Below are positions 24,181 through 54,739 of a stretch of 64,000 nt of DNA, one piece after another. The translations under genes and the position numbers were made by a program. How positions within the stretch are numbered: the stretch's first letter is position 1; each line of letters starts with the position of its first letter. Under the pieces are notes generated by a model. It was given only the letters and a program-made list of their open reading frames with translations, had not been told where the DNA came from and did not search any database. Source of the stretch: Anas platyrhynchos (Eukaryota > Chordata > Aves > Anseriformes > Anatidae); contig NC_092604.1 in assembly GCF_047663525.1 (NCBI RefSeq), positions 12,387,501-12,451,500 on the forward strand, written 5' to 3'.

Positions 24181-25674
24181 GCCTGTCTGGAAACAGAAAA
24201 ACAGCACAGACGCTGACCACAGAACTCATCCCAGCACTACATCCGCAGTTCCAGAATGAGCTGCTAATACCACAAAGTACTGGAACATGTAGGCTCACAG
24301 TCAGTGAACCAACATTAATTTCTTGGACTTTTTCTCGCTCTCTTAATTGTAAGTTTCTGGATTTTTGGCTCCTGTCCATCTCCCTTCTGACTTACAAGTC
24401 TCCAGAGATGCCAAGAAACTCAAGATGATTACTCTCATGAGCTGGAGACAGGGAATAGTGCACTGTCTGCCTGTGGCCAAAATTTTCTCTCTTGCTAATG
24501 TTAAAGCCACACAAAAGGTGGTGTCCAGCAATGCCCAAGCATCCAGCTGGGTGGATATTTGTATGAAAGTTATAACTGATCGCTCAGAAATTAATTCTGA
24601 GGAAGCCAAATGAAATCAGCCGGAGCAGATATAAGCCCCATCCCCTTGGGTTCTACACAGTTGACATTTCTGATTGTTCCTGTAAATGACAGAGTGCGGC
24701 TGTACTAACAGCTGGCAGCCAAATCCTGGGTCCTGCCACCAAGCCGTGCACGGCTCCGCACCCGTCCGTACCTGTGCTGATGCCTGCTGAGATCCAGCTG
24801 CTCGGGCACGTCGGGCATCCCAGGGCAGCATCCATGGGGGCTCTCCTGTGTGCTGGCAGAGCTGCACCACGAAGGCAAAGCTGGGAAGGAAAGAGCAGCC
24901 TAAGAGCACAGCAAAAGCCCCAAATCCCAGCAGTGTATTGAGTCGGTCATTGGGCATCAACCGTGCAGGCTTCGAGCAGAGGGCACATGTTAATTGCTAA
25001 CGAAGCTACATCACGTTAAAATGGGACGTGTGTAATTGTTGTAGCCTACCGTTTGTGCACAGAAGTTGCAGCGAGAGCCTAGCTCGTTCTGCACAAAGTC
25101 TTTTTCAGAATTTCCAACAAAGGGCGTGCAGCAGGTGCTGCCGAAATTATACAGCGTGACTTAAACTGTCAAAAAAATAGAAAAAAAAAGGCAAACAATT
25201 CAACCGGGACGGGCCTGCATCCTTAACCCTTGTTCTCGCAGCACAGCTCCCAGCCCCGGCTCCGAGCCCAAGGCTGCAGACCGGGAGCCAGCCCCTGGGG
25301 CCGCTGTGTGGGGACGGGCGGGGCTTTTAGGCACAGGGGGCGCGGGGCAGCCCCCCCGGGGGGCACAAACCCATCCCGACAAAACCTCCAAACCCCAAGC
25401 GGCTCCTTGCGGCCTCCCCTTCCCCGAGCCGCCCGGGGCTCGCCCCGTACCCGCTCGGGGGGCGCCTCCACAGCGGGCGGGGGGGCCCCCCCCTCAACCC
25501 CGGTCCGGGTCCGGTGCCGACGGCCGCCGCCCCCCGCATCACATGAGGCAACTTCGGGCCAATGGCGCCGCGGCGGGGGCCGGGGCCCCGCTGGGTGCCC
25601 GCGGACGCTCATTCAAAACGCGGCCGGGCTCGGGGCTCCGCCACCGCCACCGCCGCCGCCTCCTTCCCCTCCTC

Positions 25675-25830
25675 ATGCCCCGGCCGCCGCCCGGAGCCGC
25701 CGCGCAGCCGGGGGGCGCCGCCACCGCCTCCTCCTTCTCCTCCTCCAGCCGCGGGGCTCCGCGGGGCCGGGCGCCCCCCCCCCCAGCCATGTCCCCCCCT
25801 TCTCCTCCTCCTCCTCCCGCCGCGGCCTGA
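25675..25830 (+). CDS. putative upstream ORF in the NOS1AP-like leader
   Basis: If transcription starts upstream of 25675, the leader contains an ATG opening a 51-codon proline/serine-rich frame that stops at 25830. That is 24 nt before the main ATG at 25855 and in another frame. A second in-frame ATG lies at about 25789. The composition is that of the CpG island, so a peptide function is doubtful; a translational damping role is possible. Confidence 0.35.
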   Translation: MPRPPPGAAAQPGGAATASSFSSSSRGAPRGRAPPPPAMSPPSPPPPPAAA

Positions 25831-25854
25831 GGCGCCCTCCCCGCCACCGCCGCG

Positions 25855-25959
25855 ATGCCGGTGAAGAACCGGTACAACCTGGTGGACGATGGCTGCGACT
25901 CCCGCGTCCCGCTGCACAACGAGGAGGCCTTCCAGCACGGCATCCACTTCCAGGCCAAG
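25855..25959 (+). CDS. NOS1AP-like: NOS1AP-like coding exon 1
   Basis: 35 codons, [20 protein letters not shown] then [15 protein letters not shown], with donor GTGAGC and phase 0. The ATG has G at -3. The peptide differs from NOS1AP as I recall it at only scattered positions (the conserved skeleton is YNLVDDG...PLHNE.AFQHGI.F.AK), which fixes the start. Confidence 0.95.
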
Positions 25960-28900
25960 GTGAGCCGCGGCTCGGCACCGCTCCCCCCGCCGGAGCCCCC
26001 TCCCCACCCAAGGGACACCCAAGGGACACCCGGAGGCTCCCCGGGGTCCCCCCCCTGTGGTGCTGGGACCCGCACCGAGCGGTCCCGGGGGGGGTCGAGG
26101 CCGGGGTCTCGCCGTGCTCCCCCCACCCCGGAGCATCCCTGAGGTGCCCCCAGCTGGGTGCTGGGCCTGAGGGAAGCTGCTGATGAACTATGGAAGCTTT
26201 ATGCTTAATATCACAAACAGGTTCTTTTATTTTTCCCATTTTTTTAAGCTGTTTTGGTGCTCACGAGCCTGATGTGCTTCATTTATGTGCTGAGGACCCA
26301 CCCTGAGAGGGGCAGGTGCTGGCTGCACGCATCCTGGCTCTGTCCCCTCGCCGCGCAGGGTCCTGCTCCTGCCACGACGAGGTGACAGCTCCCGATCCCT
26401 CAGAGAGCTGCAGGCTGCTACCTGCTGCTGAGGAACACCTCGTCCCTCACCCCCTTCCTTGTCCCACCTGAGCTGACCCCTGCTTGAGCAGCTACACATG
26501 GGAGGGCTCCGTTTAAACGCACGCAGTCGTGGGGTATCAAGGAAATAGGGATAGCGTCAGAAAGTTCACGCTGATCATGAGAGATGGTCTGGCACTGCAC
26601 CACCACCGAGTGAGCAACTCAGGGGAATTGGCATTCTGTGGGCAGCGCTGGGAATGGGTTTGTAATTCGCCTGGCAAGAGGAACTGCGTTTTGCTGGAGC
26701 AACTCTGGGGCTTTCTTCCCCTCTTTGCAGGTGGCCTAGCACAGATTAGAAATGGAATTCACGCCTGCTGTCTCCTGAGCTGGAAAGAAGGGGAATGTAT
26801 TCAAATAAAGCTTTGGAACGTGGATTTTGTGCAGTCTGGTTTTCCTGCTAGAAGAGCTGCAAGATGTAAATGGGATGTGAGGATGAATCGGAACAGACAG
26901 TTGATCACATTTTAAAAACCTCTCTTCCTTGGGGAAGAAAAACAATTAATCTTTGTTTCTTTTTTTTAAATTAACAGTTGCTACACCACAAACTGTGCCG
27001 AGAACAAAAATCTGTATTTTTAAAAGATGTGAACAGGCTGTACCTTTAACTGAGTGCAATGGGCTTCGTAAGAGCGACAGCGTTAGGCACCCAGAGCTAT
27101 TCAGAGAGCGGGTGGCTGCTGAAAGGCGTGTGGGTCTGAGCTGGGGTGTGCATTACCTTAGTAACGTGCTGGCTCCGTTCTGTTCTCGCCTGCCTCTCCC
27201 AATGAGGACACTGACTGTGGGCACACCACTCAGCTGCAGCTCAGCGTGACAAGGCTGCAGCAAGCAGCCAGGTGTCTTACACCAGGCCATCTCCCTGGCC
27301 ACTCAGTCTCTAATCTCTGCATACCAAACCATATTGCTTGCCCTATAATCTTCGGGGACAAATGTCACAAGGTCAGAAACGGGAGCTGCATGTGGAAAGG
27401 TGGCTGCGTGCACAGGAGCACAGGCACCTCAGCTCTTCCAAAGCAGGGAGTTTGGGAGAATCTCGCGTGGCTCTGCTGTCACCAGTTCTCTTCCTGCCCC
27501 ACCTGGGAATTCACCTTTGGCAGGGTGGCCTGTTCCTGTGCAGCTCTGCGCAGACAAAAGCCCATTGGGAGTAGCCATGACCACACTGATGGCCACCTCA
27601 GAGAACAAGATGCTTGCAAACAAACAGGCGCAGCTCTTGAGAGACACCGACATGCCCTTGCAGTGAGGGCAGAGGGAAATCCTGGCTCCTCTTTCCCTTC
27701 TCTGCTGCCCTCCAGCTCTCTGGCTGGAGTGGTTTGGCTCTCCTGCGGTTTACCAAAGGACACGCCTGAAGTTGCTGCTCTCAAAAATGCCATTTTGCAA
27801 AGGCATTTACAGAAACATCAAAAAGAACAGATGACCTTTCAGATTGCTTGCGGTATTTATTTCAAGGCAGATAAAAGACCAGTAAATACCGAGCCAGGAG
27901 AACTCATCTCTGAAAAGCTCTATTATGCAAAAGTTTTCAGGATAAAACCCCTTGCAAGCTGCAAGTGTTATAGCAGAGAAATTAACACTGAACTGTGTCA
28001 GTAACAGTGACAGCTCTGCAGCTGCTCTCAAGGAACTATTTGGTCTCTGTTCATAGCTGTTACCACATTAAGTGTTTGCAGGGTTCTCCTGACTAGGTGC
28101 CTCCTTTTTCCTCCCCCGTCACAGGGGAACAAGCTCCAAAAAAAACAGCAACTTGGAGCCAAACACAACTCATGAACCAAGCGCTCAAGATGGGGACTAA
28201 GCTTTGTCACCTGCCCTCTGTCCTGACAGACCCCCCTGGGAAAACGCCAGTGCCAAGCTCCTTGCTCAAGCCCCTGCTGTCGGATGAGGACACTTCTCCC
28301 CACACTGCTCAGCCTTGTGCTCAGGCAGCATCTCCCTGCCCTCTCCAGCACGCCCTGGACAACTGAAGCCTCTCCTCAGCACAGCACTGACACAGCACGA
28401 GAGAACAGGCTGCCAGCTTACAGAGAGCTGTAGGTGTTGGGGGCCTGGCGGCCACCCCCTGCCTCACCTTTCAGCCCCAGAGCAAGGGGTGCTGCTGCCC
28501 TGCTAGGACTCGATGCTCAGGCACAAATCCTGGGTGCCACGGGAAGCTGCTGTGGCATCAGTGTGGGCTCACCCAGCAGCTTGGTTGGGATTGCAGCCCC
28601 TGTAAGCTTAGTTAGGAGCAGCTGGTACAGGACACAGCTTGGAGCGTGTTTATGGGATTGCAGACAGGTGAACACGTCCAGCTAAGCAGCAGCAGTGTCC
28701 AGGGGGAAGATGGTCGCGACTGAGAAGCTAGCCCAGTTGTGAGCCTGTTCCAGCAGGGCTGGTTACCGCACATCCTGGTAACTCGTGCTTTTAGCTCCGA
28801 GTCCTTTAAAAGATGTGGAGAGGAACAACAAAGGATGGATGATCCCATTTTCAGACCCACGGGACTGTGATTTGATTCATGTAGAAATTGCTGTGCAAAG

Positions 28901-31900
28901 CATGGGCAAAGGCACAGCCAGAACCTGAATCCAGTCAGACTCACACCCAAAGCTAGGAGTTAGCATCTCCCTACCTTCGATAACACTATCTACAACGCAC
29001 ATCCCTACCATGCCCTGGGTTAAGAGTATCTAACCACGCAGGGACTGACCTGATGAGAGATGCTGTTTGTTCTGAAGATGCCTACACCATTAACTCGTGC
29101 ATTGCTTCATGAACTCTCTCTCTGTTCTGTCTTTCAGTACATCGGTAGCTTGGATGTGCCCAGGCCCAGCAGTCGCGTGGAGATTGTGGCAGCCATGAGA
29201 AGGATTCGGGTAAGTTCAAAAGAGCTGAGTCTCGGGTGGAATAAAAGGTTACCTTCACTGGAGTGACGTGGTTGCAGTGCGCTGTTCCGCGTTTTCCTCC
29301 ATCTCCCCTTTCCTATCTGGAGCTCAAATCTCAATCAGGATTGTAACTCACTTCTCTAGAAACTCCCAAGGCACATTAGGATAGACCTGTCCCCCTGTTC
29401 TTTGCAGAATGATCAGTTAGGAGAGCTCAGACATAAAACCCTAGCCTCTGCCGAGGAGGTATGGAGATTCTCCTTGAACCTAAGAGATTTATTTAGCCTG
29501 TTTTTTTTTGTACAAAAAGCAAAATGAACACAATCTGCTTCACAAAAGCACTCAAATTCACTGACAGTTCTAGGTACATTATGTTATTATATGCTGAAGT
29601 ATCAGTGACCTGGCAGATGTTATGGATGTAAATCCCATTAGACAAGACTTTGTGGATTCTGCTGCTCACAGAATAACTCGCTGTTTTTTCCCTGTCCTTC
29701 AATACAGTTTCACAGTTCCTGTTTCTCATCATCACGTCTGCACTCTTCCTCTAGCCCTTTACTTTTCAGAACAGCCTGTGAATGGTCACCAGATTCAGCA
29801 ATGATAAGCTTTGTGGCTAGCTTACATCTGCTTCATGTTCAAGTGCACCTACCCCAAAAGGCAGTGCAGCCGTCGTGCCTTGTATTGTGCGGGTCTTAAC
29901 TCTGAGGTTGTTCCTTTGGCTCACATCAGCTGAAGCAGGTTTGAGAATCTTCCATTTAGAGCTTTGAAGGGATTATCCTATTCTCCACCCTTCCCCCTGC
30001 AGTGTTTAACCATCTATTTTTCATTTAGAGTACTGCTTTTTAAACTTAGCCTGCGACTGACTGAGGAGCTGATGTATTCATCTCCAGCCGGGCTCAGAAA
30101 TGACATTCTGTGCCTGCTCAGGCTCTTAGCACAGCTCCTGCTCAGAACACGGTGCAGTCGCAATCTAAATTGCCCGGTTATTTATGGAGCAGGTGAACAC
30201 CAACAGGAAGCAAAGGTGCGGAGTACTGGGCCAGTTCAGATACTGGTGCAGCTATTAATAAGTTTTGCTCTGAATCGATTTTTTGGCGTTTTGACAATGC
30301 ACAGCAAAAGCGGCTTCTTATGATCTTTGAGCAGGTAACACCCTTGCAAGAAAAAGGTAATATTTTAAACCCAGTTTCCAGAAAGTGTTATGTTCTGTTT
30401 ACACACCTGCTGTTGCCCCAGTGGCACCGTGTCTAGCTCTGAGTCGTGGCAATGCCATAACACGGTCAGGTGCTACGTGAGGCATGTAACAAGCCACTCT
30501 GCATTTCTGGATGCCATCAATTAATCCGATCGCACGATATTTTTAAAGTGGGCACCCTGTATTCTATACTGGATTTTTAATCTTGGGAGCCCTTTCCAAA
30601 AAGGGAGGGCTTCCCTTTTCATGCGCGTATTGTACAGCAGGATCTCATTCAGACGCTTCCTGGCTGCTGAGCGGAAGATGCTCCTCTATTGAAGATAGTT
30701 AATTGGCACTGATCCTTAATTAGAGCATAAAGAATGAACTGGGAGGTCTTTGAAGAGAGTTCTAGTGCATGGAGTACACAACCTAGGAACTGAGGGAAGA
30801 TGGGGGTTATTTATGTAGCATTCATTTGCATGCAGCGGCCTTGTCTATACTAGAGTCTTTTCCCATGGGCTCTCGGCAGAACCAGTTACAACTGGGAGGA
30901 AACACTGGGAGAAGCTATTGGGGGAAACCAGTATTTTGCTACCACCTTATTGTGAGCGGTAGCGCCTGTTTGCTCTGCGAGAGCGAGCAGGGTCCTGCGG
31001 CCCTGCCAGGCCTTGGCGAGGGCACGTTCTGCTGCAGCTTTCATCCTTTGTGCGCCCCAGTGTTCAACTGGAATTCTCTGCTGGAGCGGAAGAGAAGAGA
31101 CGCGCGGTACAAGCCCTAGCACAACATTGTTGGTGCTGCCTTGCGACACCACGGGAGGAGGCAGCACTGGGGCAGGCAGGGCTGGGAGCCAGCTGAGCAC
31201 AGGGCAGCCCCTGGCACAGCCCGGCTGTTATTTGTGGCTTCTGCTGCTCTGAGAGGGGACCAGGGAGGAGGATGAGGAGTTAGAGTGCCTCTCTTTAGGG
31301 AGTCACCACCAAACTCCACAGAGCTGGTTACTCTAGTTACTCATTAGTAAACTAATACAAGCTCTGAAACTGCCTTCCTACTCCTAGGCCTGATTCTGGT
31401 CTCCACTCTGTGATTAAAAGCACTTGCCCCAGGGAAAAACCAAGAGCTACCTCGCGCTGAAAGTTGTCTGTACAGTGTGGGAAGAGAGAGAAGGAGGTAA
31501 GAGAAGCAGCAACTGGAGTTGCTAAGTCTACTCCTTGGCACCTTGCTGGCCTGTGTTTTGTACCAGGCTCTTTTGCCAGTTGCATATGAATTATGCCAGG
31601 GAGCCTGGGAGGAGTTCAGTGGCATTCTCCCTGCATCAGCAGAGCTGTCTGCTTGCAGAGTTCAGGACACGCAGCGTGCTGTGGGACGCTACTCCCAGAG
31701 AGCCTCAAATGACAAGCTTTAAGAGTAGCCTGCTGCAATCCTGATCTGTTCTTTTGCAGAAGGGATTTAAGATGCACTCTCATAGTAAAGCTTAAATCCG
31801 TATTTCTTACTGAATGGATGCTTGTGGATTGCTAGCAATACTCCATTAGTCACAGATTAGATTCCCATTTCATAACAGGCTGGAAAACCTTGTCTCGTCA

Positions 31901-34900
31901 TGTTCTGTGCTTCCACTGAAGGGAATGCAAATGCAAGAGGTAGAACAGGGAAGTTGCTGTTCTTCGCTCCCCATTATGCAGAGCTAGACAACTTTAAGTT
32001 TGCTAATCCTCCCCGTGGCTTATTAGCTGCATACAGCTGCCATGTTATTATATGATTCTTTGAGTTCAAACTAATCCCTCTACCTCCTCCAAGACCTGGC
32101 AGGGGACGTGATGAAATTGGTTTGCTACTTGAATGAGCGCACTGTGCTCTGACAGGCACAGCAAGTTCCAGGTGCTGGTGAGGAGAGTCCAGCTCCTTGC
32201 GAGCACCCCGCGCTGCCAGGCACCCCACCGGCTGCTGCCCGAGGCCATGCAGCTCCGGGTGTCTGGCAGCACCCACTCGGCTCCTGCCCTCGGAGTCAGC
32301 ACGCCAGCGCTGGCTTTCTGCTCGAGTGGATTCATCTGCAGATACTGAGCCTGCTCATCACTCTAGGAATTTATCTACAACACAAGATTTTTCTTCCTAC
32401 AGCAGTTAAGTGGCAGCTAATATGACAAAGTGAAGTCCTTCCCAAGGGCCCAAATAGCACCGTGATTCAGTAGGGTCACCCTCTCCCTAGACACACTACT
32501 CCTGGCTGCCTTTTAGAAGACAATTAAACAGACAAGTCCTCCCTTTAGCCAGGTGAAGGCTCTCGCTGGTTAGGAGGAGATGTTGTTGAGCCCAGGCAAC
32601 AACAAAACTACACCAGCAGCAGGAAGACTTTGCTGGCAATGCCTGTGGGTATGGCCCTGGGGGTACAGACGAGCTCTGTAAAACACAAAACATTTCTAAA
32701 GATCCTGAAGTTGCTTGGGAAATCTTGCCCTGGGAGACCAGGGAATAGATGGCTTGATGTGGAAGGTTAACATTGCAGCATCCCCTGCATCCTTTCCCCA
32801 GCTTCCAGAGCTAACACTGACCAGAGGGAAGTCAGCTGTGACCTGCCTGGAGCAGCGCTACCCTCAGTGAGCCCTGCAGACAGCCCGGCAGCCCTGGTGA
32901 AGTGCTGCTATTTTGGGAGGCGAGTTTCCAAGGACACTGTAGGAACAGTGCCCAAGCCCATCATCCCTACAGACAACCTCCTGCCAGCAGTTCCCCAAGT
33001 CGCTCCGTCTAATTACCTTTAGGGCAGAGAATCAGGCTCTCTGGAATTCGCACTTACTATGGAGCCTGGACATTTCAGGCCTGTTTGGGACCTGAGCAGG
33101 TATTAACACTCGGAAAGCAGCCAGATGTTGGATTGCTAGCTCACTTTAATCATTTAATTAGGGGACTGGCTACTGGTGCTGGGCCCATCCAAGCATTAGG
33201 ATGAACTAACAGGAGGGAGGCATCTCCAGACTAACATGTTTCTGCTGTTAACCTCCATATTCCTTAGACTTAATTTAACTGAGAAGGCTTTTCTCCAGAG
33301 TCTAGCGTGCCACAAAAGCAGAGACATTTATAAATCTTGACACAGGACACATCAGAAATGCTGAGTTCTCCTTGGCGTGAGAACCAGCTTCTCACTCCAG
33401 CCTCCCCCTTATCCTGATCGTTTTTTGCTGCACTCATGCTCTAAAGCAGAGGCTCAGCGAATTGCAGTTTCAGTGTAGTATTCTAGTGAGGAAGTTCAAT
33501 CCAGCCACACGATAAATCATATTGACTGCCAAATATCAACTGGTAGTGTTGAAGTGTGACATGACATCAGTTTAAATCCAGATGAGAGGAAGTCAGAGTC
33601 CCTCAGTGCACCCTGGTGAAGCAGAGGAGGCAGGGACAGCTGTGCACAACCTGCCTCTGCTGCACTCCCCACCTGATGGCTGGGCAGGCTTCGTATGGCA
33701 GCCTGCACTGAGAGCCATGCCGGGCTGTAAGTGGCAAGGGCTCAAGAGCAAACCTGGGTGTCATTTGCCTGCTCGTGCTATAGGAGAGGAACCAGGCAGA
33801 CAGATGGCGGAGGGCAGGGTGGCTGCCTTCAGTCATTTCAGTTTAATTTATCACTGTGTGGTGGGACTCCAGAAATAGAGATGTTTAACAGACTTGACAA
33901 TGAGATTCTTCTAGAACACAGTTCCTCCAGTTTTCCTAGGCAGACACCCTTCCTACTACAGGAGAGAAGTTTGCCAAGATTATTGCTGCGTAGATTTCTC
34001 TGAAAGGTTCTGCCTATCAGCCCTTCTTTACTCACTATGCACAGAGCTAAGCTTTCCTACCAGTTTTGCATTAAGTTGAGCTGAAGCTGCATTCAGTACT
34101 TTAAAAAAAGGGAAAAAAACGTAGCTGGTGGGTTTCTCTGTTAGTCTTTGCAGCCTCTCCCACTTTAATGAAGTGGTTGGCTCTGCTGCAGCTGAAGGAC
34201 AGGCTCAAGCGTGGAAGTTCTCCTGTGCAGCGATGGAGCACTTGCCCTGGTATGGACCTCTGTAGCTGCATGCCAGGCTCTGTTGGTTTTGGATGGGAGT
34301 TTGTTCTGCTGCAGTTCCTGGAGGGCTTTTCCTTTCAGCCTCTTTGGAAGAACATCCAAGCACTCAGCTAATGACAGCCCTGGGCTGTGAAAGAAAACTA
34401 TGCCAACGTCTTAAAATATTTCAGCAGTCCTCAAACTGCTGGTGTGGACCTTTGATGCTCAGAATGCCACGCACCTTCCTTTCCTTTACAGGATGGTACA
34501 GAACAAACAGGTGACAGTTCTTACATGGTTAGGGTATAAAAACACCAGCATCTCATGTGTCTGCTCCAAACTGCTAGCACAGCCCGAGCCAGCTAAGGAC
34601 ACCGCTGATAGTACAGTGTGGGGAATATGTTCCACGTCTGGGTGGGCAGCCAAGTCCCTTTTACTAGATGCCATAAGAGAGCTGGCAGGAGAGGAGGGCC
34701 ACCTCAGTTCACCCGAGGCCTTTACATAAATATTGTCATCACATAGTGGCATTCACTGATGAACAGCACTGTGGAAGATGGTCCCATGCTGTGAGCATGG
34801 GTCCAATCCACATTTATATTGACAGGCATACAGGCAGGCATCAGGCCTTACAGAAAGAGGAGAGGAGTACTTCAGATAAACAAGTTTCCTAAGCCTGTAC

Positions 34901-43900: not shown

Positions 43901-46900
43901 CCATGGTGGCGAGACTGGAGAGAGGCTAAGCTGGGACATCAGCGCACAGGTCAGGATCAGCAGGTCCATAGCAGTCATGGCTGGGCTCAGCTGGAGACCA
44001 ACACTCCCACACCACAGCTCAGGAAAGGTTTCAAAGGCCCAGAGCTGAGCTTAAATGCAGCCCATGTGCCCGGTGTATGGGGGTATGGTGGAGGCCCCAG
44101 GTGAAGCTGGTCAGGACCGTTAAGGCCTGCGGAGGCCTCAGGGCCCTGGCACTGGGTGCGTGTTATCCAGGTGGAAACCAGCAGCTTAATTCTGTCAAAA
44201 TGAGAATAAGCCGAGGTGTCAGCACAGCCCACCAAGAGAGAGCCCCAGCATGGATCTGGGCTTGGTGGGAGGCCGTGGAGGACAAGGGCTGTCCTCCAGC
44301 TAGATCCAAGTGCTGGGGTTCAATTATCCTGGAGTCCATCCCCTGGCCCTGTACGAGCCTGCCAGTACTTCTGCTTCCACCTCCCATCTCAAATCGCCTT
44401 TGCCTGCCTGCTGGACCAGCCAGTGCCAGGAAGCAGATGGTTTCGCATACCTTGGCTGAGGTGTGTTGAAGAAATGTTGAGCTTTAGACTGGATTTTCCC
44501 ATTAATACTTTGAACACAGATGTTTGACAAGTTGTCTCCAGCTCCAGCACCTGAGCAGAACCACCACGCGTGGGGCACTGGCTCCGGGCAGCCCGCAGCA
44601 GCCCCATAAATCAGTCCTTGGGGCCTGGCCTGGCCCCTGGGTTCCTCACCAGCACTGATCAAAGCCTGGGCTGCAAGTTTCTGCAGCTCAGGCACCGCGG
44701 GGTGGTTGCACACAGACCGACCACGGGCTGGAGGTGTAGGTGGAGACCTGGGGAAGGAGCGCAGACACCATCCTTCCCCCCGGCACCACTGCACAAGCCC
44801 CAGTCCTCCCCGGTTCCCCAGGCAGCACAGCCGGAGCGCCGACGAGGGCAATGTAAATCCTGTGTGACAGCGGTGACCCCGCGTCCTCGCTGGGGCTGCT
44901 CCTGGCACCCCCCAGGTCACCACTCAGGGACGGCCTGCAAAGAGCTTGCTGGGGGGGAAAGAGCTAATTTAAATGAGAAAAAAAAAAGACTTTGGGTCCG
45001 TTGCCAGCATTCTCCTTGCCTATTGTACTCCCTGCTCGGGTTCTGCTTTCCCCTGGGCAGCTTTATGTTTCCAAGGCCCATAAATTCTCGTTTTTCCACT
45101 GGGCAGGAGGTGTGCTCCTGGGCTGCGCCGCTTCCTGCCGGGTTTTGTGTCCGTGTTGCCCAGTTACTGCGGCGCAGCCCCGGGCTATGCCCAGCCCCAT
45201 TCAGACCAGCTGTGGCCCCCAGCCCCGGCAGTGTGGAGGATTCGGGGCAGGAGCTTGCTTTCCAGGAGGAGAAAAGGGAAGGCTGAGAGCCCGTGGGGCT
45301 CAGGGGTGACCTGAGAGGGTGTCCTCCCCGAGGGGCTGTCACCTGGAGGTGTGCTGCAGCTGGGGACGTGGTGACTTGCCAGGGGATTTGAGGCTGGGCT
45401 GCAGCCGGTGGCCCGAAGGCTGTGGGAACTGACAACGCGTGTTTGTCAGATCCAAAGCGCCCGTAATCTGCCCTTGCTGAGAGCAAAGCCCACGGGGTTT
45501 CTGTGGCATCATTTCCAAGCAGCAGCCCTCCAAGCATCAATAATTCAAACAGAAGTTGAGATAACACCGTGTCCCCATTCCGTGCGGGCCGGTTTGGTCG
45601 GAAATTAATAACATTGCTGAAGCAGAAATACTTGGATTCTCTGCAGTACTGATTCCTAGCACGGCACCCAGGCGGCACCAGAGGTTGCAGACTGTGGCCG
45701 GGGGGAGAGGCATCACCCCCTGGTCCTGCCGGGGGCCTGTTGCTGTGCAGGGCCGCCAGGAGCCTTCTGTAGGGCTGAGCAGATCTCTTCCCCTCATTGC
45801 CGTGCCTCCGGTGTCCGTCTGCTGGGGCCGGGGCTGCACCTCACCGCAGGGTTCTTTAGGGACACAGAAATCCCAAGGCTGCTGTGCCAGGAGTGGGGCT
45901 GGACAGCTGCAGGAAGAAACAGGCCATCCCCAAGCCTGTGGGATCATCCTTTGGGCATGCAAACAAAGCACTTACCCACTTAACTCCTGTCTCAGGAACC
46001 CGGAGAGCCTCTGCCTCGCCTTCCCGTACTCACCTCTGCAAACCATGGCACCATGGTGCTGGCTCCCGCAGCTCCCCGGGGTCCGGCCCTCCTGCTCTTT
46101 GTTAATGAGGAAGGTGCATTTTTTGGAAAGAGAGCCTGCCTCCAGGACTTGCAAACACTCTATTTTATGACATTTTTCATTTGCATAATGAAGGCCCTGA
46201 TACCTTCGGTAATTAATCACATTAAGAATTGCTTCCTTGAATAACTCTATTCATGCAAGTTGTTCTTAGTGCTGGAAACTGCGTATGATTTCAGATGTGC
46301 ATTAGCCCATCTCTTTCATCAGCAGATGGAAGCGGGTAACTGCATGTGTAATTTATATCTGCTTGGGTGGAATTATCAGATGAAATATGCATTACACAGC
46401 GCCATTAACATTTCTAGTCATACAGTCTTTAGCTCTTGGGTAAGTGAATATTACATGCCAACAGTGTGGGGGACCGTGTGAGAGGCAAGGACCTGAACAC
46501 AGGGATTTGAAAACAAAAATGGAAAGTATTCCAGGTCAGACGCATCAGAAATAGAATTAATGAAGCTGCTAAATTAGGTGAGATGCAGTGCCCTTTTTTG
46601 ACCTGCATTTTTTATAAAACGTCCCCTCCTCTCTCCATAGCCAATAAAACCGCCAGGTTTGCCCATTGGATCTCCGCTTAGGGGCAGCTCCCGACTCCTT
46701 AACATCCAGAAAGATCCCCCAGAGGATAACACAAGCAGCAGGAGAACAACTTGAATCTCAGAGGGCAGATTCGGGGGTCTCACCCTGCAAGAAGGATTTC
46801 TGGGCCCTGTGGATCTGAACCATTTTCAGGTCAAGCTCTGACCCTCTGGCTCGACACCAGCCCACAGGAGGAACAAGGGCAGGGCTGGGCAGCTCACACC

Positions 46901-49900
46901 AGCCCTGTGGCTCCCTTCGGGGCTGATGTCCCCTGTGGGTCCCCTCCAGAGCCCGTCCCGAGGTCAGGCTATGTGGGACCTGGGGCTGAAGGAGGCTCCC
47001 CCTTCACTTCTGGCAGTGCCCGGCCGTGCACTGCCACTGCTCCCGCTCGATTGCTTTCTGGCCAAGACAGAAAGAAAAAAAATATCTCTGCAAAACCCAG
47101 ACTTGGACTTTGCTTAAAGCCTCTGAGTAAAGAGCCTTGTTTGAATGTAATTGCACCCCTGTTGCTACAAGGGGAAAATACACTGCATTGCTCTCTCTTT
47201 CTTGGAAAGCTCGGCTAGTATTTTCCCAGCCATTTGTGTACAAAGAAAGATAAATAGCTCTTTAGCGGGCAGAACAATCTCTCCCGTTTTTTTGTTGTTT
47301 TTTTTTTTTCTTTTTTCTTTTTGACATCCATGCCAGCACATGAGGCGCAGCAGCTTGGCGGAGCTGAGAGCAGGGAGGGTGCAGCCTGGCGGAGCTGGGA
47401 GCAGCGGCAGGGCCAGGGCTGAGGCTGGGGCGTGTGCTGTCCGTGGGCTCCTGCAGGCTGCCCAAAATCCAAGGGATGCTCCTGCCACCTTGCCCATCGC
47501 TTTCACTCCTCCCTACATATACATGTTCATCAGATTTAGCTCCTGCTTCACACGCTGTGGTGCTATAGATAGATTTTTAAAGAGCTCGTCTCAGAGTAAT
47601 AATTCATGGGGAGATCAAAGGGCTATGGTTTAATCAGGGGTCTGTCTGATACCAGCAACCTTGCAGAGTGCTAAGAATTCAATGAGCATCATCAAAGGGC
47701 TGATAAGCACGAAAAGCCATCCAATTTTCTGCCCATAAGGCTGGTGGGGCTTACAGGGGTGCTGAGGAGCTGGACAGACTCCTGGCTGCCGTGCCGACAG
47801 AGCCACGCACACTCCAACATCAGGCTCTGATGGAGCTGCCTGGACTCCGCTAATGACTGAGCTGCTGCCTGCAGCTCCACTGACTCTACGAAGAGATAAG
47901 ATTGCTAATTACATGTCTAATTACACAGCATAGGTAAGCTTCAGTCTGCGCTCTGCCTCTTGGCATCCCCTTGTCCTCCACGTACCAGAATCACGTCCTC
48001 TGCGGGGATTCTCCGGAGCAAGGGGTCAGAAGCCATCCCGGGGGCTGACTGCCGCCGTGTACATGGCCCCCCAGCCCTGCCACGGCACGGTTATGTTTTT
48101 AGGCTCTCAAAACGGGGGATTTGGGATTTGTTTTCTCTGCTTTCCAGATACGGTAACTGTACATCGAGTTAATCCAAAGGATTTCTTTTTTAATAGATGC
48201 ATGGGGTCTGTCTCTATGGCTGCGCTGACAGTAATGGCTCTGTGCTGGTTTAGATAAACCGAGGGTCTGGCCCAGGAAAGCTGGGTTTCGGATAGGGACT
48301 GCCAAAAAAATACGGGGTATCAAAATGCTGTGTTTGGAAGCCAAAAATGGTGCCTAAAATGGGGCCGGCTGGGATCAGCATGGTTAACACAGGTCTCCAG
48401 AGTGGAAAAGGCTCTGCCGTGCTTCTTAGCTATCATCACAAGCAACATTTAAAAGCCAGCAGTTTAATTTTTAACACAAATGGAGGCGAGTTCAAACTGC
48501 AGACACCTGCAGATAAGGAGTTGGTTTTTTCTCTAGAGATACGGAGCGCAGCGAGGTTAATGTGATTATGTCAATGACTGAGATATAATTGCGTTACCGC
48601 CACCCATCTGGCCCTCCCTGCGACTCGTAAGTGATTTTATATTCCCCGTGCACTGCAGCGCTGAGGCACAAGGGCACTGGAGATGCCAGAAATCGCTGCT
48701 TGGTGTCTGCTGCAAGAGCCCCCCCCGGCAAGCCGCTGGTGCAGGTCCCGCTGGACTATGCAAGGTGTTTCAAACGTCAGGAAATTCCGTGTGGGTCTGG
48801 ATTAACAGCCCCTGGGCTGCTGGTCTCTGGTGCAGCCACAAAGCCTCTCCTTGTCACCAGCACCCTCACCCCTGGGAGCCCTGCGCTGGGCTCCCCCAGG
48901 ACCCTGCTCAATGAGCTGTGTTCCCACCACAGGCTGGGACAACGTGGCTCCTGGTGTGGTCCAGAGGGTGGAGCACTGCTTGTCCCCTCCTGAGGGGCAC
49001 TCCTGACACGGGCAGGATCCCACTGGCACCCCAGCTCCAGCACCGGGTCCCTCCAACAAGGATTTTCTCAGCAGGATAAGCAAGGACCGCTTCCCTCGGC
49101 AGCTGGGATTAAAAACAAAAACATTTTCATGTGAGGCACTGACTAATGCTGCGCTGTCCGGTCCTACCTCTCTCCTAACCCGCCTTTGTCTTCCCATCAG
49201 TATGAATTCAAAGCCAAGAACATTAAGAAGAAGAAGGTGAGCATCATCGTGTCCGTGGATGGCGTGAAGGTGATCCTACGCAAGAAGCAGAAGGTGAGGC
49301 TTCTCCAGCCCAGCGTGCCCGGGACGTTGGCCCTGCCCATGGCAGAGCATTGCTGCTGCTCAGAGCAGTCAGACTTCTATCCAGAAGGGGCCTTTTCTCA
49401 AGAAACACCCGGAATTTTCACAAGGAAAAAAACCCTCAAATTTTCACCAAAAAAAAAAAGATAGCAAAATCTCACTGAAAAAAAAAAAAAAAAGAGTGGG
49501 AAAATTACACTGTGGGAGGAGGATTTTTTCTATCAGAAAATGTAAAGCTTTCAGGAAATGCAGTTTCTTTTCCTTGTTAATACCGGTAGGCTTCCTCCTC
49601 ACTGCCTCGGCTGCGCACCGTCCCTGGGCTCACCCCCAAGGAGAGCCAGCGGCTGCCCCTGATGTCCCAAACCCCCTCTCAGAGCCTTGTTCCCCAAATG
49701 CATTAATCTTCTGCATATTTGATGATATAAATTAATCTATAAATTAATCTTCGGAACAGTTTTCAGCCCTGGAGGCTATGATCAGATGACCAGATATGAT
49801 AAATGATCAAAGAAATCTATTTTAATCCAAGATACCAACCAAGCAGCCACTGCTGACACGGTCACAGAATCATTTCAGCTGGAAAAGACCCCTAAAAAAA

Positions 49901-52900
49901 TCCAGTCCAACCTTTAACCAGGCACTGCCCAGTCCTCCACCATTAAACCAGTCCAGCTGTAGCCCCGACCTTGGCTTGGGGACAAACGTGCCTTTTTCCT
50001 GGGTCCTGCCCGTCGGCGTGGTGGAGTTTCAGTGCCTGTAATCCACTCTAACCGTGTTTCTGCCCCACGTACAGCGCAAGGAGTGGACCTGGGACGAGAG
50101 CAAGATGGTGGTGATGCATGATCCTGTGTACAGGTACGTGCCGGGGGTGCACCCCGGGTGCTTTTATCCAGCCCTGGGGGGTGCAGAGCTGTCCTCCTGC
50201 TTGTTCCACCTCTGGGAGGGCTGGCGCTCAAAGCTCCATGAAAAATTAACGAGGCTGCAAAATTACTGCTGGCGGAGAACCTATTTCATTCATTTTTGGG
50301 ATTGAGACGGACAGACTGAGCTGGCTTTGAAGCCTGCACTGCGTTGAGCAGGGGTCAGACGGTGACCCGCAGAGATCCCTTCAGCCTGAATTGCTCTCTG
50401 ATGCTAACGCAGAGGACAGGCTTCCTGTGGTCCCCAGCAGAGCACGGCTCGCTGTGAGCCTGTGAAGAAGGCCCTGATGTTGGGGCATGAGCTCTTAGAG
50501 GGAATTAACCCATACGGGATGCACTGATTGCCATAGCACCTGCTCTGGGATCTCCAGGTAGCTGGAGAAGAGAAGTCCCATCCAAAGGCATCTCCTGCTG
50601 CTCTGTGCCTGGTGGTGACGGCACTCAGAAAATCTTGCAGGGCTCTGGCCAGGGGCTTTTCCAACAGGTCTGTCTGGGGAAAGAGCTTCTTCTGCGTGTT
50701 TAATTCCCCCTGTGCCTTCCCCCAGAATCTTCTACGTGTCTCACGACTCGCAAGACCTGAAAATATTCAGCTACATCGCGAGGGACGGCGCCAACAACTC
50801 CTTCAGGTGCAACGTCTTCAAATCCAAGAAGAAGGTAGGACACCGCATCCACCTCGGGCCCCGCACCCTGCCTGCAGTGGGGGTGTTTGGGGCTGTGGGA
50901 CCCTCCCCAGGGCTGACCGGGGGGGTTCTCTGCCCCGCAGAGCCAGGCCATGCGCGTGGTGCGCACGGTGGGCCAGGCCTTCGAGGTGTGCCACAAGCTG
51001 AGCCTGCAGCACGCCCTGCAGAACGCCGACGGGCAGGCGGACGGCGCCAGCGACAAGTCGGCGGAGGAGCAGCCACCAGAAGGTGACGTCCAGCTCCCCG
51101 CGGGGTCTGGGAGGCAGGGATGTGTTGGGGTGGGGGGCTGCACGGTGACCTGTCCTCCTGGGCCAGCTCTGCTGACAGCAAGAGCTTCGTGGCCCATCTG
51201 GGGCCGCGGGGGATGCGGCCTTCCCACCTCCCCATCCTGGGAACACGGAGGCTGAGCCTCCTTTTCCAGCAGGGTGGTGGCCTGGCACGCTGCCCTGCTC
51301 CTGCCCCCCTGCAGCACACGGAGACTTGAAGCAAGGCTTGGCTGCTTGGCTCTTCTTCCTGGGCTGTTGGGGGGCTGGCGGCTGTGCCTGGTTCATTTTA
51401 TCCATCTCGTTTGAAGTGCACCAGATAAAGGGCTCCAAGATCACAGATGTGGACGAGGTTGGCCTCGACTCTGATGGCATCTGCGTGTCTGAGAGGGGAC
51501 CAGGAGAGCTGCCGGCTGCCAGGGGTGAGCTCAGCGCGCTGAAAGCTGGACAAGGCACCAAGGACAAGAACTGCCAGGTAAGAATCCTTGGGACCAGGCT
51601 GGGGACGCTGCCCCCACTGCAGAGCCCACCTTCCTGGTGCCCTGGGGCAGCTCAGCAGGCCCCTGTGCCCCATGCCATGAAGCAGCTGGGGCTCGCAGGG
51701 CACACGGAGCCAGCCAGGGCTGTCACCACCATGGGTGAAACACCCCAGTCTCTGTGGGCAGACCCGTGGCAGGGCTGCCTGCTCAGCATCCAGCTGGTTT
51801 GTAGTTGGCTGTGTCACTTCCCCAACCTGTGAGAGTCCCCTGGTGCAGGGCAGAGCCCCGGGGGGTCCTGACTGAGTGCACCGAGAGCTATCACACAGCA
51901 CTGGAAAGGGAAAACGAGGCAGGGACCCCAGCATGAGCAGCTCCCTGTTAACAGGGGGAGACTACGAGGTGTCTCCAGCAAGGCGAGCATTTCTGTGCGG
52001 TGCAGGTTGGTTTCTGGGCCCCAGGGCTGCTCTGCAGCAGTCGTTCGTCTGTGCTCAGGCAGCGACCCCAGCTCCCTGCTTCCCCTGGGCAGCAGCATCC
52101 CTCGGGGCAGCCCGGCCTCTGCAGCAAAGACACCGAGGGTGCGCTCGGTGCTGGCCGTGGGCAGCCCGTAATGAATAGCTGCTCTGCAGAGCCGTTCAGT
52201 GAGCGTTTCCTGGCTGCCTTAATGGCACCATTTCATTTCACACAATTGTATCGCTTGCAGAGCCTGGCTGCAAACAGCTGCGATGAAATGCATTCAATTG
52301 GATTTATTTCCTTGGCTCAGAAGGCTGGGCTTTGCTCTGCTTTACCATTTAGATGTGGATCTGCCCGCTGCTGCCCTGGTGCCCCTGTGCTGCCCAGGAG
52401 CAGGGACGTGGCTGTGGGGTCACCGTCCCTGCGCTGCGCTGCCCGGGGCTCTGCAGGGCCCACGCTGGGATGCTGGGGGTGCAGGGGGTGCACGGCACAG
52501 CGTGGGCACGAGGGGGGTTTCTGGCAGCAAGCAGTGCCCAGCCTGGGTCTGGGTGGCTGTGGGGGCAGCTCTGCCTCCCCAGGCAGCGCCGCAGGGCCCC
52601 AGCAAACTCCTGGGGAGCTTCTGTCTGGCAGCCCAAGCTAACCAACCCCCCTCACCGGGACTTTCTCCCCACTCCAGGACCCCGAGAGCTGCTCCCTGTG
52701 CCCAGCCGGCTCCCAGCAGTTGCTGAGCCCTGGCAGCCCCTGCTCCTCAGCCTCCATCACGCCGCTGGCCTCCCAGCACTGCCTCCAGCTCCTCCAGCAG
52801 CAGCTCCTCCAGCAGCAGCAGCAGACGCAGGTGGCGGTGGCTCAGGTACGCGTCCTGCATTCCCCAGGGACACCCCCTGCCCCTCTCCTCGCCCTGCGGG

Positions 52901-54739
52901 ACCGGGACGGGACCGAGCGGCCGCTCCCCGCCCGTGGGGGCCCCGAGGACCGGCAGAGGGCGCCCAAGCCCCGCGCAGAGCCGGGGGGTGCCCGGGGAGC
53001 TGCTGGGGGGGGACCCGGGGATGCTCCGGGGAGAGCCCTGGGGGAGACGGGGATGCTCCGGAGGTACCCGGGGATGCTCCGGGGGTGCCCGGGGATGCTC
53101 CGGCCCCGCAGCCCCGTCCCTTCCCGCAGGTGCAGCTGCTGAAGGACCAGCTGGCAGCGGAGACGGCGGCGCGCATCGAGGCGCAGGCACGGGTGCGGCA
53201 GCTGCTGCTGACCAACCGCGACCTGCTGCAGCACGTCTCGCTGCTGGTGCGGCAGCTGAAGGCGCTGGAGAGCCGGGCACAGCGCCGGCAGCCGGGTGAG
53301 AGGGCACGGGGACCGGGTGCTGCCTTGCTCCGGGGTCAATCCCAGCGCCTCGCTCACCCCGGGGCTCTCTCCGTGTCTCCGCAGTTGACCGCTCGCTGCA
53401 GAACCTGTCCCTGGCGCAGTCGCTGTCCCTCAACCTGAAGAACCACTACAGCCTGGACATCGCCCTGCCCTCCACCTCCACGCCCGCCAGCGTCCTGGGC
53501 AGCCCCGTGGGCCCCCGCTCGCTGTCGGCTCTGGGCGTTGGGGATTCCTACCTCAACCTGCTGGGCCTGGAGAGGGGCGGCCCCCGCTTTGGCAGCAAGG
53601 AGGGGGACGAGGGGCTGACCACCGCGCTGGAGGGGCAGGAGGGGCTCAGCAGGCGCGTGGAGGGCTCCGAGGTCAGCGAGGTGGCTCTGCTCAACGGGAG
53701 CGGCCGGCAGAAGGCAGAGGACACGGACAGAGGGGACGAGGACAGGTGGGGATCCGCTGCTTCTGCTCCCACCGGCCGGAGCGGGAGCACCGCGGTGCTT
53801 TTGTCACTAATCCAAAACACAGCAGCACCTGAATTAGTGTGAAGAAATTAGCTTGATTCCAGCCAAAAGCAGTACGACAGCACAGCGCCTGCAGCAGGGT
53901 GCTCACAGCTGCCCCAGGGGATGGAGGGAGGGAGGGCAGTGCTCTTGGTCCCGTGGCTCGAGGGTCTGTGTGCTGGCTGAGACCAGGAGGGCAAAGCCGG
54001 GTGTGAAATCCACCATGTTCACCCCTAGGGACAGGGCTGAGGGTCACTGTCTATGCTGCTCTTATCCTCCTGGAGCGAGGTGGTCAGCGCCACATCACTG
54101 CAGCACCCCAGCTCCAACACACACAGCATCGGGTTGCACTGAATGCAAGAGGTGTCTGCCTTTTGGAGAGCCTGGGGCAGCCAGACTGAGCTATCCGCAC
54201 AGGTAAGTAGCTACTTGCCCATCACCTCCTCTCTGCTCTCGCTTCCCAGGCGGCAGCAGCCCATTCCCAAGCTCAACCCGCCGCCACCCATCCTACGCAA
54301 GAGGTCCAGCAAGACCTCCCCGAGCCTGGAGGTGGAGGCCAAGCCCGAGAGCACTGCCCACGTCAGCCTTCCCAGCCCCAGCGTGTCCAGCCTCACCAAC
54401 ATCACTGCCAGCTCCCTCACCCTCTTGGACTCCGAGGCAAGGACTCCTGCTTGGAGCGCTGCCTCCAGCTCAGAGCCCGTCCCCTCCAGGACCTTCCAAC
54501 GTGTTCTCAGCAAGGACAGGGCTGGGGAGAACGGGCACATGTCCCCACCAGCCAGCTGCCACGACCCCGCAGCCAGTGAGGTCCTGGGCAAGGACTTGGC
54601 TGTGCTGGTGAGCCCCACGGACAGCATAGTGCCCTTCTCTCCTGCGGACGACACCTGCCTACACATCAGCTTCTCAGAAGATGAGCTGCTGGAACCAGAG
54701 CTGGACGCTGCTGTGGGGCCCAGCAGAGTCCCCTCGTAG
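25855..54739 (+). CDS. NOS1AP-like: NOS1AP (CAPON)-related PTB-domain adaptor, eleven coding exons
   Basis: Exons are 25855-25959, 29138-29209, 49201-49293, 50075-50133, 50726-50834, 50941-51082, 51417-51577 (start uncertain), 52678-52845, 53130-53295, 53385-53745 and 54250-54739. They join in frame to about 641 residues (631 with the shorter exon 7). Residues 26-190 form a PTB domain nearly matching NOS1AP ([69 protein letters not shown]). Residues 285-352 form a Gln-rich coiled coil ([18 protein letters not shown]) also shared with NOS1AP. NOS1AP links neuronal NOS to Dexras1 and synapsin, and Scribble to planar polarity proteins. The C-terminal 283 residues are Ser/Pro/acidic and are not the NOS1AP tail; the protein ends ...SRVPS, without the nNOS PDZ ligand. 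It is an apparently intact paralog. The position beside TTLL11 suggests an ohnolog rather than NOS1AP itself. Confidence 0.88.
25960..29137 (+). other. NOS1AP-like intron 1
   Basis: A 3.2-kb GT-AG intron starting inside the CpG island. Open frames such as 27.25-28.0 kb on the plus strand lack recognisable domains. No repeat family was recognised. Confidence 0.7.
29138..29209 (+). CDS. NOS1AP-like: NOS1AP-like coding exon 2
   Basis: 24 codons ([20 protein letters not shown] then RRIR) between acceptor TGTCTTTCAG and donor GTAAGT, phase 0. This is the first PTB strand/helix region with the GSLDVPRP signature. Confidence 0.95.
30470..30760. promoter_or_regulatory. candidate conserved noncoding element, intron 2
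   Basis: An AT-rich island with homeodomain-type cores, for example ATCAATTAATCCGATCGCAC near 30517 and AGTTAATTGGC plus CTTAATTAGAG around 30700-30725. It retains CpGs (GATCGCACGAT, CATGCGCGTATT), unusual for neutral AT-rich DNA. Conservation is inferred from texture only. Confidence 0.35.
33005..33180. promoter_or_regulatory. candidate conserved noncoding element, intron 2
   Basis: TCTAATTACCTTTAG near 33010 and CTTTAATCATTTAATTAGGG near 33144 cluster four TAAT/ATTA cores in under 170 bp. Regulatory role is inferred. Confidence 0.3.
35695..35775. promoter_or_regulatory. compact TAAT-cluster element, intron 2
   Basis: About 60 bp hold GGTAATTAAGCGTTAATTGC, CCTAATGCTTCATTAG and related cores, one of the densest homeodomain-site groupings in the window. 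Function is inferred. Confidence 0.3.
36990..37400. promoter_or_regulatory. candidate conserved noncoding element, intron 2
   Basis: An AT-rich island with GGCTAATAAAATCAGCAG, AGCTAAATTAAAATG and TTTGCATAAGTCATG segments, in contrast to GC-rich flanks. Regulatory function is inferred only. Confidence 0.28.
46090..46640. promoter_or_regulatory. candidate enhancer with POU octamer, intron 2
   Basis: The island contains a perfect octamer ATTTGCAT (46179-46186), TCGGTAATTAATCACATTAA near 46206, AAATATGCATTACAC near 46383 and several further TAAT cores. It is AT-rich, unique and unlike the GC-rich flanks. POU plus homeodomain sites suggest a neural or developmental enhancer, an inference from motif content. 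Confidence 0.4.
47540..47960. promoter_or_regulatory. candidate enhancer, intron 2
   Basis: Holds AGTAATAATTCATGGGGAG, GGTTTAATCAGGGGTC, TCAATGAGCATCATCAAAGG and a pair GCTAATTACATG/TCTAATTACAC spaced 12 bp apart near 47904-47926. The doubled TAATTACA looks like a paired homeodomain binding site. Function is inferred. Confidence 0.38.
48420..48640. promoter_or_regulatory. candidate enhancer, intron 2
   Basis: Contains AGCAGTTTAATTTTTAACAC, TGCAGACACCTGCAGATAAG (GATA and E-box cores) and GAGGTTAATGTGATTATGTC. It sits about 600 bp before exon 3. Function is inferred. Confidence 0.33.
49201..49293 (+). CDS. NOS1AP-like: NOS1AP-like coding exon 3
   Basis: 31 codons ([20 protein letters not shown] then [11 protein letters not shown]) with acceptor TTCCCATCAG and donor GTGAGG, phase 0. 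If the donor is skipped, the frame continues VRLLQ for five codons before reading on. This resembles the optional LLLLQ insert I recall in NOS1AP, but no good alternative donor follows. Confidence 0.95.
49294..50074 (+). other. NOS1AP-like intron 3
   Basis: A 781-bp intron with two A tracts (49449-49459 and 49478-49493) and a truncated CR1 fragment. No other feature was recognised. Confidence 0.75.
49862..49960 (-). mobile_element. truncated CR1 LINE 3' end
   Basis: CACAGAATCATTTCAGCTGG, then AAAAGACCCC, TCCAGTCCAACCTTTAACC and GGCACTGCCCAGTCCTCCAC are the reverse complement of the CR1 3' end (consensus ending in ...GACTGGATGATC...CCAACC...ATTCTATG). The copy is about 100 bp and diverged, so old. 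CR1 is the dominant LINE of birds. Confidence 0.8.
50075..50133 (+). CDS. NOS1AP-like: NOS1AP-like coding exon 4
   Basis: 59 nt encode [19 protein letters not shown] plus two bases of a split Arg. The acceptor is CCACGTACAG and the donor GTACGT. The EWTWDESKM stretch is a NOS1AP hallmark. Confidence 0.94.
50726..50834 (+). CDS. NOS1AP-like: NOS1AP-like coding exon 5
   Basis: 109 nt complete the split Arg and encode [20 protein letters not shown] then [16 protein letters not shown]. The acceptor is TTCCCCCAG and the donor GTAGGA. This is the core PTB beta-sheet region. Confidence 0.95.
50941..51082 (+). CDS. NOS1AP-like: NOS1AP-like coding exon 6
   Basis: 142 nt encode [20 protein letters not shown] then [20 protein letters not shown] and AEEQPPE, with one base left over. 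The acceptor is TGCCCCGCAG and the donor GTGACG. It contains the C-terminal PTB helix ([10 protein letters not shown]). Codons are strongly GC-ending. Confidence 0.94.
51417..51577 (+). CDS. NOS1AP-like: NOS1AP-like coding exon 7 (start uncertain)
   Basis: The end is clear: ...KDKNCQ then donor GTAAGA at 51578. Exon 6 leaves one base, so the acceptor must restore that phase. Three in-phase AGs exist: 51314 (strong pyrimidine tract, would add a hydrophobic stretch), 51416 (first AG after TTTTATCCATCTCGTTT) and 51446 (CACAG, weak tract). I chose 51416. The attractive CCAG at 51424 would shift the frame to an early stop. The encoded [13 protein letters not shown] resembles the NOS1AP segment TDIDAVEV. 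The region is a linker between PTB domain and coiled coil. Confidence 0.6.
52678..52845 (+). CDS. NOS1AP-like: NOS1AP-like coding exon 8 (Gln-rich)
   Basis: 56 codons, phase 0 at both ends, with acceptor CCCCACTCCAG and donor GTACGC. It opens Ser/Cys/Pro-rich and ends in [19 protein letters not shown], the NOS1AP Gln tract that begins the coiled coil. The CAG codons are nearly pure, so length variation is likely. Confidence 0.9.
52846..53129 (+). other. NOS1AP-like intron 8
   Basis: A 284-bp, extremely G-rich intron whose 3' half is a minisatellite. It ends in the acceptor CCCTTCCCGCAG. Confidence 0.8.
53011..53103. repeat. G-rich minisatellite in intron 8
   Basis: About four imperfect copies of a roughly 20-bp unit containing GGGGATGCTCCGG (at about 53017, 53050, 53070 and 53092), with spacers such as AGGTACCC and GGGTGCCC. 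GGGG runs could form G-quadruplexes on the sense RNA. It ends about 26 bp before the exon 9 acceptor. Confidence 0.75.
53130..53295 (+). CDS. NOS1AP-like: NOS1AP-like coding exon 9 (coiled coil)
   Basis: 166 nt with acceptor CTTCCCGCAG and donor GTGAGA encode [20 protein letters not shown] then [20 protein letters not shown] and [15 protein letters not shown], plus one base. Leucines fall in heptad spacing. The segment aligns with the NOS1AP coiled coil ([20 protein letters not shown]). Confidence 0.94.
53385..53745 (+). CDS. NOS1AP-like: NOS1AP-like coding exon 10 (paralog-specific)
   Basis: 361 nt complete a split Val and encode 119 residues starting [20 protein letters not shown], plus two bases. 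The acceptor is TGTCTCCGCAG and the donor GTGGGG. A Ser/Leu-rich section ([20 protein letters not shown]) is followed by a Gly/Glu-rich one. It has no counterpart I recognise in the NOS1AP tail. Open frame, phase continuity and strong codon bias support it. Confidence 0.85.
53746..54249 (+). other. NOS1AP-like intron 10
   Basis: A 504-bp intron between the paralog-specific exons. The frame stays open from exon 10 for 97 bases into the intron and stops at 53842, see findings. No repeat was recognised. Confidence 0.75.
54250..54739 (+). CDS. NOS1AP-like: NOS1AP-like coding exon 11 (last)
   Basis: 490 nt complete a split Arg, then [20 protein letters not shown] and about 140 more residues to a TAG at 54737-54739. 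The acceptor is CTCGCTTCCCAG. A Pro-rich segment next to RKRSSKTSP suggests SH3/WW-type binding and basophilic phosphorylation sites, while the end is acidic ([12 protein letters not shown]). The protein ends in SRVPS, not a PDZ ligand. Confidence 0.85.

Follow-up and report, generated by a model that had tools for sequence, protein, structure and literature searches.

The window, that is the whole 64-kb stretch of DNA that was analysed (contig C18 of the duck assembly, positions 12387501-12451500), carries an intact gene of eleven exons at 25855-54739 on the plus strand. The exons and the other features of the window are listed in Table 1, where they are compared with the NOS1AP gene on contig C8 of the same assembly. 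When the exons were spliced they gave a coding sequence of 1926 nt, which is 641 codons and a stop without an internal stop, and all 10 introns had GT...AG ends and consistent phases. Similarity and splice signals guided the manual placement of the exon boundaries, and for exon 7 the frame-preserving acceptor was used. An intact eleven-exon gene in this interval had been called in the first-pass annotation, and that this gene is real and intact is confirmed as far as genomic sequence alone can tell. Intron 2 (29210-49200) is about 20 kb long, twice the length of its C8 counterpart of about 10 kb. Rfam and tRNA scans of the 64-kb window returned no matches. A short open frame on the minus strand at 59672-59884 had no Pfam match up to an E value of 1 and presumably resembles a common piece of the LINE (CR1-like) proteins of birds and reptiles.

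Table 1. Features of the window (positions are those of the window; C8 denotes the NOS1AP gene on contig C8)
Feature	Position	Strand	Remarks
TTLL11 catalytic exon	3624..4205	-	3624-4202 matches PDB 9hq4 TTLL11, 1.1e-118
CpG-rich stretch around exon 1	25001..26250		
Exon 1 (ATG)	25855..25959	+	in-frame TGA upstream at 25828; ATG within CpG-rich stretch; 105 nt, equal to C8 exon 1
Exon 2, PTB start	29138..29209	+	72 nt, equal in C8
Exon 3, PTB	49201..49293	+	93 nt, equal in C8
Exon 4, PTB	50075..50133	+	59 nt, equal in C8
Exon 5, PTB	50726..50834	+	109 nt, equal in C8
Exon 6, PTB end and linker	50941..51082	+	142 nt, equal in C8
Exon 7, divergent linker	51417..51577	+	same phases as in C8 (1 in, 0 out); 161 nt against 158 nt in C8
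Exon 8, QLLQQ stretch	52678..52845	+	168 nt, equal in C8
Exon 9, coiled-coil stretch	53130..53295	+	166 nt, equal in C8
Intron 9, 89 bp	53296..53384	+	site where the C8 gene has the EIAV (nNOS PDZ ligand) exon, 404 coding nt
Exon 10	53385..53745	+	corresponds in place and phase (1 in, 2 out) to the first C1orf226 exon on C8
Exon 11, stop	54250..54739	+	corresponds in place to the second C1orf226 exon; short shared motif

When the predicted protein was examined, the Pfam PID (PTB) family matched residues 32-169 at 4.1e-32. Compared to a working reference sequence of human NOS1AP, 157 of the first 182 residues and 53 of 67 residues of the coiled-coil stretch were identical, so that the earlier description of these two parts as near-copies of NOS1AP was borne out, and the similarity of the predicted protein to NOS1AP is far beyond chance. 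The coiled coil, which was called by similarity to C8, follows the QLLQQ stretch. Scans of viral and GTDB contigs with residues 1-181 gave no confirmed relatives. Between the C18 and C8 genes the lengths of exons 1-9 were equal in 8 of the 9 and all the phases were equal, the boundaries being placed by hand; the boundaries of the C18 tail exons were fixed before C8 was inspected, and the phases of both tail exons match those of C8.

The whole assembly (1.26 Gb in 42 contigs) was searched with proteins at E<=1, scoring only the best candidates, 20 for the human NOS1AP query and 31 for the window protein. With the human query all 18 scored matches fell on two loci, ten on C8 (16152358-16172467, minus strand) and eight on C18; with the window protein all 19 scored matches fell on the same two loci, 11 on C18 and eight on C8. 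Since only the best candidates were scored, these searches leave room for a remote third copy of NOS1AP. The gene on C8 is a complete NOS1AP of ten exons that ends in EIAV, and about 5 kb beyond it lie two C1orf226 exons. This gene is the true NOS1AP, for which a search in the same genome had been proposed, and the gene in the window is a second and separate NOS1AP-type gene, as the first-pass annotation had maintained. The high identity of its PTB domain to that of human NOS1AP could by itself have been taken to mean that the window gene is the NOS1AP ortholog of the duck genome, but this reading is virtually untenable, since the gene on C8 is complete, has the EIAV exon, is identical to human at 169 of residues 1-182, and has an OLFML2-type gene some 50 kb away. 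On C8 the C1orf226 exons (16147771-16146962) extend the open frame from NOS1AP exon 9 in phase 1 and read DQSMFEN. Because this reading is in frame with exon 9, the usual start methionine of C1orf226 lies inside the NOS1APc frame, and the human C1orf226 exons would be expected to continue the NOS1AP frame likewise. A literature search found no description of a second NOS1AP gene in the titles and abstract starts among the matches listed, and a name such as NOS1AP2 occurred as a whole word in none of the papers searched.

The two genes differ in what follows exon 9. In the C8 gene the EIAV-ligand exon comes after exon 9 and before the C1orf226 exons. The ExF motif that binds nNOS lies in this exon of NOS1AP. 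Intron 9 of the window gene is too short to hold the EIAV exon, and the protein ends in RVPS. The tail of human NOS1AP, used as a query against the window, gave no match better than E 0.29, and in the whole genome its matches among the scored candidates were on C8 only. In its exon content the window gene is thus not a full second CAPON, because the exon for the nNOS PDZ ligand is absent and the tail appears to be of a NOS1APc/C1orf226-like kind. This was not noticed earlier.

The tail itself is made of exons 10 and 11, which occupy the position of the C1orf226 exons in C8 and have the same phases, 1 and 2. Exon 10 starts with VDRS in the window gene and with MDQS in C8, and a short motif is shared near the start of exon 11. 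Against a working reference sequence of human C1orf226 the spliced tail scored 109, compared to a shuffle mean of 46 (SD 8), and none of 1000 shuffles reached it; for exon 11 alone 1 of 1000 shuffles reached the score and for exon 10 alone 39 of 1000. The score of the same tail against the tail of human NOS1APa was ordinary (791 of 1000 shuffles reached it). A tail HMM, built from only two sequences (the human C1orf226 reference and C8) and run without spliced decoys, placed the spliced tail of the window gene at the top (E 0.00054) of a set of 1580 ORFs and 2 spliced entries, and the best unspliced ORF was the one that contains exon 11 (E 0.38). In the direct comparison of C18 with C8 the score was reached by 38 of 2000 shuffles for the whole tail, 26 of 2000 for exon 11 and 412 of 2000 for exon 10. 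The family model PF15429 (C1orf226/DUF4628) matched the window protein at E=4 with 7.4 bits against a family cut-off of 26 bits, and in the whole-genome search with this model there was no match on C18. It could be argued from this weak similarity, and from an exon 10 that resembles C8 no better than many shuffles do, that the gene is an ohnolog in which exons 10 and 11 are new and unrelated to C1orf226, and that the comparison with NOS1APc is mere analogy. We regard this as unlikely in view of the shared two-exon layout and phases, the similar start, the motif near the beginning of the last exon, the score against human C1orf226 that no shuffle reached and the first rank with the tail HMM. 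The tail of the window gene is likely to be homologous to the C1orf226 exons.

TTLL11 lies upstream of the window gene and is divergent from it, in agreement with the first-pass annotation (Table 1). The order on C18 is DAB2IP (12.333-12.344 Mb, plus), TTLL11, the window gene (12.413-12.442 Mb, plus), NDUFA8 (12.4578-12.4596 Mb, minus) and MORN5 (12.460-12.473 Mb, plus), where all genes but TTLL11 were named by family matches or by comparison with working reference proteins. We take the human order to be DAB2IP-TTLL11-NDUFA8-MORN5. When NDUFA8 was sought within the window no match was better than E 0.09, its locus being about 6 kb past the window end. Several of the genes on C18 have counterparts on C8. 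The C18 DAB2IP has a partner with a DAB2P_C domain on C8 at 19.08 Mb (RASAL2 type), and a third copy is on C17. An OLF domain in two exons (OLFML2 type) is found on C8 at 16.097 Mb, which is the gene near NOS1AP mentioned above, and its counterpart is on C18 at 13.36 Mb; genome-wide there were 14 OLF matches, on C1, C4, C5, C8, C11, C18 and C27, and the one on C11 is also split but at a different point. PBX gave three matches on C8 (17.66-17.75 Mb) and three on C18 (13.60-13.69 Mb) and none elsewhere in the genome. In the DAB2IP/RASAL2-type, OLFML2-type, PBX-type and NOS1AP pairs the C18 copy is on the plus strand and the C8 copy on the minus strand. The exception to this pattern is an OLFM-type pair, at 8.33 Mb on C18 and 11.04 Mb on C8, both copies of which are on the minus strand. 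The third DAB2P_C locus (C17:4840211-4844189), which we assume to be of SYNGAP1 type, could belong to a third block of the paralogon, and no NOS1AP match was reported there among the scored candidates of the whole-genome searches. PMC1309616 describes human 1q21-q25 and 9q33-q34 as belonging to one paralogous set, PBX1 lying at 1q23 and PBX3 at 9q33. The C8/C18 pairs together with this published human 1q/9q paralogy support an origin by whole-genome duplication.

The first-pass annotation had proposed that the gene is an ohnolog from the 2R duplications. As there is a distinct NOS1AP on C8 and the second locus sits in the C8/C18 paralogon, this is the best reading, and it is strongly favoured here. 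A second NOS1AP gene is not known from human or other mammals. A retrocopy origin was considered and is excluded. What has to be weighed is a duplicate specific to birds or sauropsids, which would have been copied to C18 with its introns and would be evolving fast. Over residues 1-182 the identities were 169 of 182 for C8 and human, 157 of 182 for C18 and human and 153 of 182 for C8 and C18. Among the differing sites, 18 were changed in C18 alone, 6 in C8 alone and 2 in human alone, while at 5 each of the three sequences had a residue of its own. The corresponding identities in the coiled coil were 66, 53 and 54 of 67, and in the linker 65 of 100 for C8 and human and 23 of 95 for C8 and C18. 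In all three of these shared regions C8 is therefore closer to human than to C18, which speaks against a lineage-specific duplicate. In a tree rooted with GULP1 and LDLRAP1 none of the three topologies was rejected, their AU p values being 0.59, 0.23 and 0.54, and the support for C8 with human was 48; the value of 0.23, which belongs to C8 with C18, leaves some ground for a lineage-specific duplicate.

Synonymous divergence (NG86) between C8 and C18 was highest in the linker, at 1.00, and lower in residues 1-182 (0.79) and in the coiled coil (0.52). The raw dS of the latter two regions is moderate and not saturated (Jukes-Cantor), which also favours a lineage-specific duplicate, and it looks old only once GC3, which is 0.86 on C18 and 0.93 on C8, is allowed for. 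When the fourfold mismatch was expressed relative to its composition ceiling, the NOS1AP pair gave 0.67 (codons 1-182) and 0.80 (codons 1-350), and the six other C8/C18 comparisons ranged from 0.55 to 1.05 (DAB2IP/RASAL2 type 0.55 and 1.05, PBX 0.77 and 0.98, OLFM type 0.89, OLFML2 type 0.66); comparing the C17 copy with DAB2IP or RASAL2 gave 1.16 and 0.87. These comparisons are of few sites (9 to 93) and the first for DAB2P_C comes from an alignment with 35% identity. By this measure the NOS1AP pair looks about as old as the other C8/C18 pairs. The dN/dS values between C8 and C18, 0.12 for residues 1-182 and 0.26 for the coiled coil, indicate that the PTB domain and the coiled coil are constrained. 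For the linker the value was 0.99, from an uncertain alignment, and a fast linker is again what a young and fast-evolving copy could have. The linker (window 51049-52785, residues 183-283, exons 6-8) shows no measurable constraint relative to C8, though the lengths of its exons have changed little or not at all. Against these points for a lineage-specific duplicate stand the greater closeness of C8 to human, the composition-scaled divergence that resembles that of the other C8/C18 pairs, and the position of the copy in a paralogous block in an orientation that matches three other pairs though not the OLFM-type pair. A duplicate made within birds or sauropsids is accordingly quite improbable, and recent copying is very unlikely.

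The reading that we prefer, and consider probable, is that the window contains a second, intact NOS1AP ('NOS1AP2'), an ohnolog of the C8 NOS1AP that was kept in a 9q33-type block beside TTLL11, and that this second gene encodes an nNOS-blind adaptor of the NOS1APc type. NOS1AP has been studied for the QT interval and for schizophrenia. In human cells NOS1APc consists of the PTB region, exons 7-9 and the two C1orf226 exons, and NOS1APa is without C1orf226; NOS1APc localises to cell-cell junctions and has a bearing on Hippo signalling, it binds KANK1 through the PTB domain and less strongly through the C1orf region, and its interactome includes SCRIB and VANGL1 (PMC11607453). PMC9576154 places C1orf226 after NOS1AP on human chromosome 1, and PMC4667522 reports joined NOS1AP-C1orf226 transcripts in prostate cells. 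From these similarities we infer that the window protein would most likely be a cytoplasmic or junctional adaptor. Its PTB domain would dock partners of the Scribble/VANGL/KANK1 type, its coiled coil would multimerise it, its tail may contribute membrane or KANK-type contacts, and the protein could feed into the polarity and Hippo pathways with no recruitment of nNOS. A partnership with Scribble or Dexras1, which the first-pass annotation suggested, would follow from the PTB domain only.

How the two forms of the gene came about can be proposed more tentatively. In PMC3276551 invertebrate orthologs of NOS1AP are reported to lack the EIAV ligand that the vertebrate protein has. Either a loss of the EIAV exon on C18 or its gain on C8 after the duplication would account for the difference between the two genes. 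It is possible, though we would not put it at even chances, that the window gene is a relic of NOS1AP before its link to nNOS: after 2R the EIAV exon would have been gained or kept only on the C8/1q copy, the C18/9q33 copy would have kept the ancestral form of PTB domain, coiled coil and C1orf226, and mammals would have lost the second gene and do both functions by alternative splicing of one. NOS1AP has so far been studied as a single gene with alternative ends, for example in Hippo signalling (PMC11607453). In a second gene fixed in an nNOS-free form, the two functions of NOS1AP would have been separated naturally; such a gene would strengthen the case that C1orf226 belongs to the NOS1AP unit, and it makes a later addition of the nNOS link testable. 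It also bears on the choice of birds and other non-mammals as models for NOS1AP.

Among known proteins, GULP1, LDLRAP1, ANKS1B and NUMB have the PTB domain in common with the window protein by sequence, but their similarity to it is far weaker (best 1.5e-13) than that of NOS1AP. With the NOS1APa isoform of NOS1AP/CAPON the window gene shares the PTB domain, the coiled-coil stretch, the phases of exons 1-9 and eight of their nine lengths, and it differs in being without the EIAV exon and in its strongly diverged linker. The C1orf226/DUF4628 family (PF15429) agrees with the window tail in position, phases and a short motif, whereas the tail scores below the cut-off of that family. NOS1APc has in common with the window gene the architecture, the 11 exons (as modelled on C8), the phases and the PPPP...KR motif; the window gene, unlike NOS1APc, is a separate gene on another contig, with a strongly diverged tail and no alternative EIAV exon.
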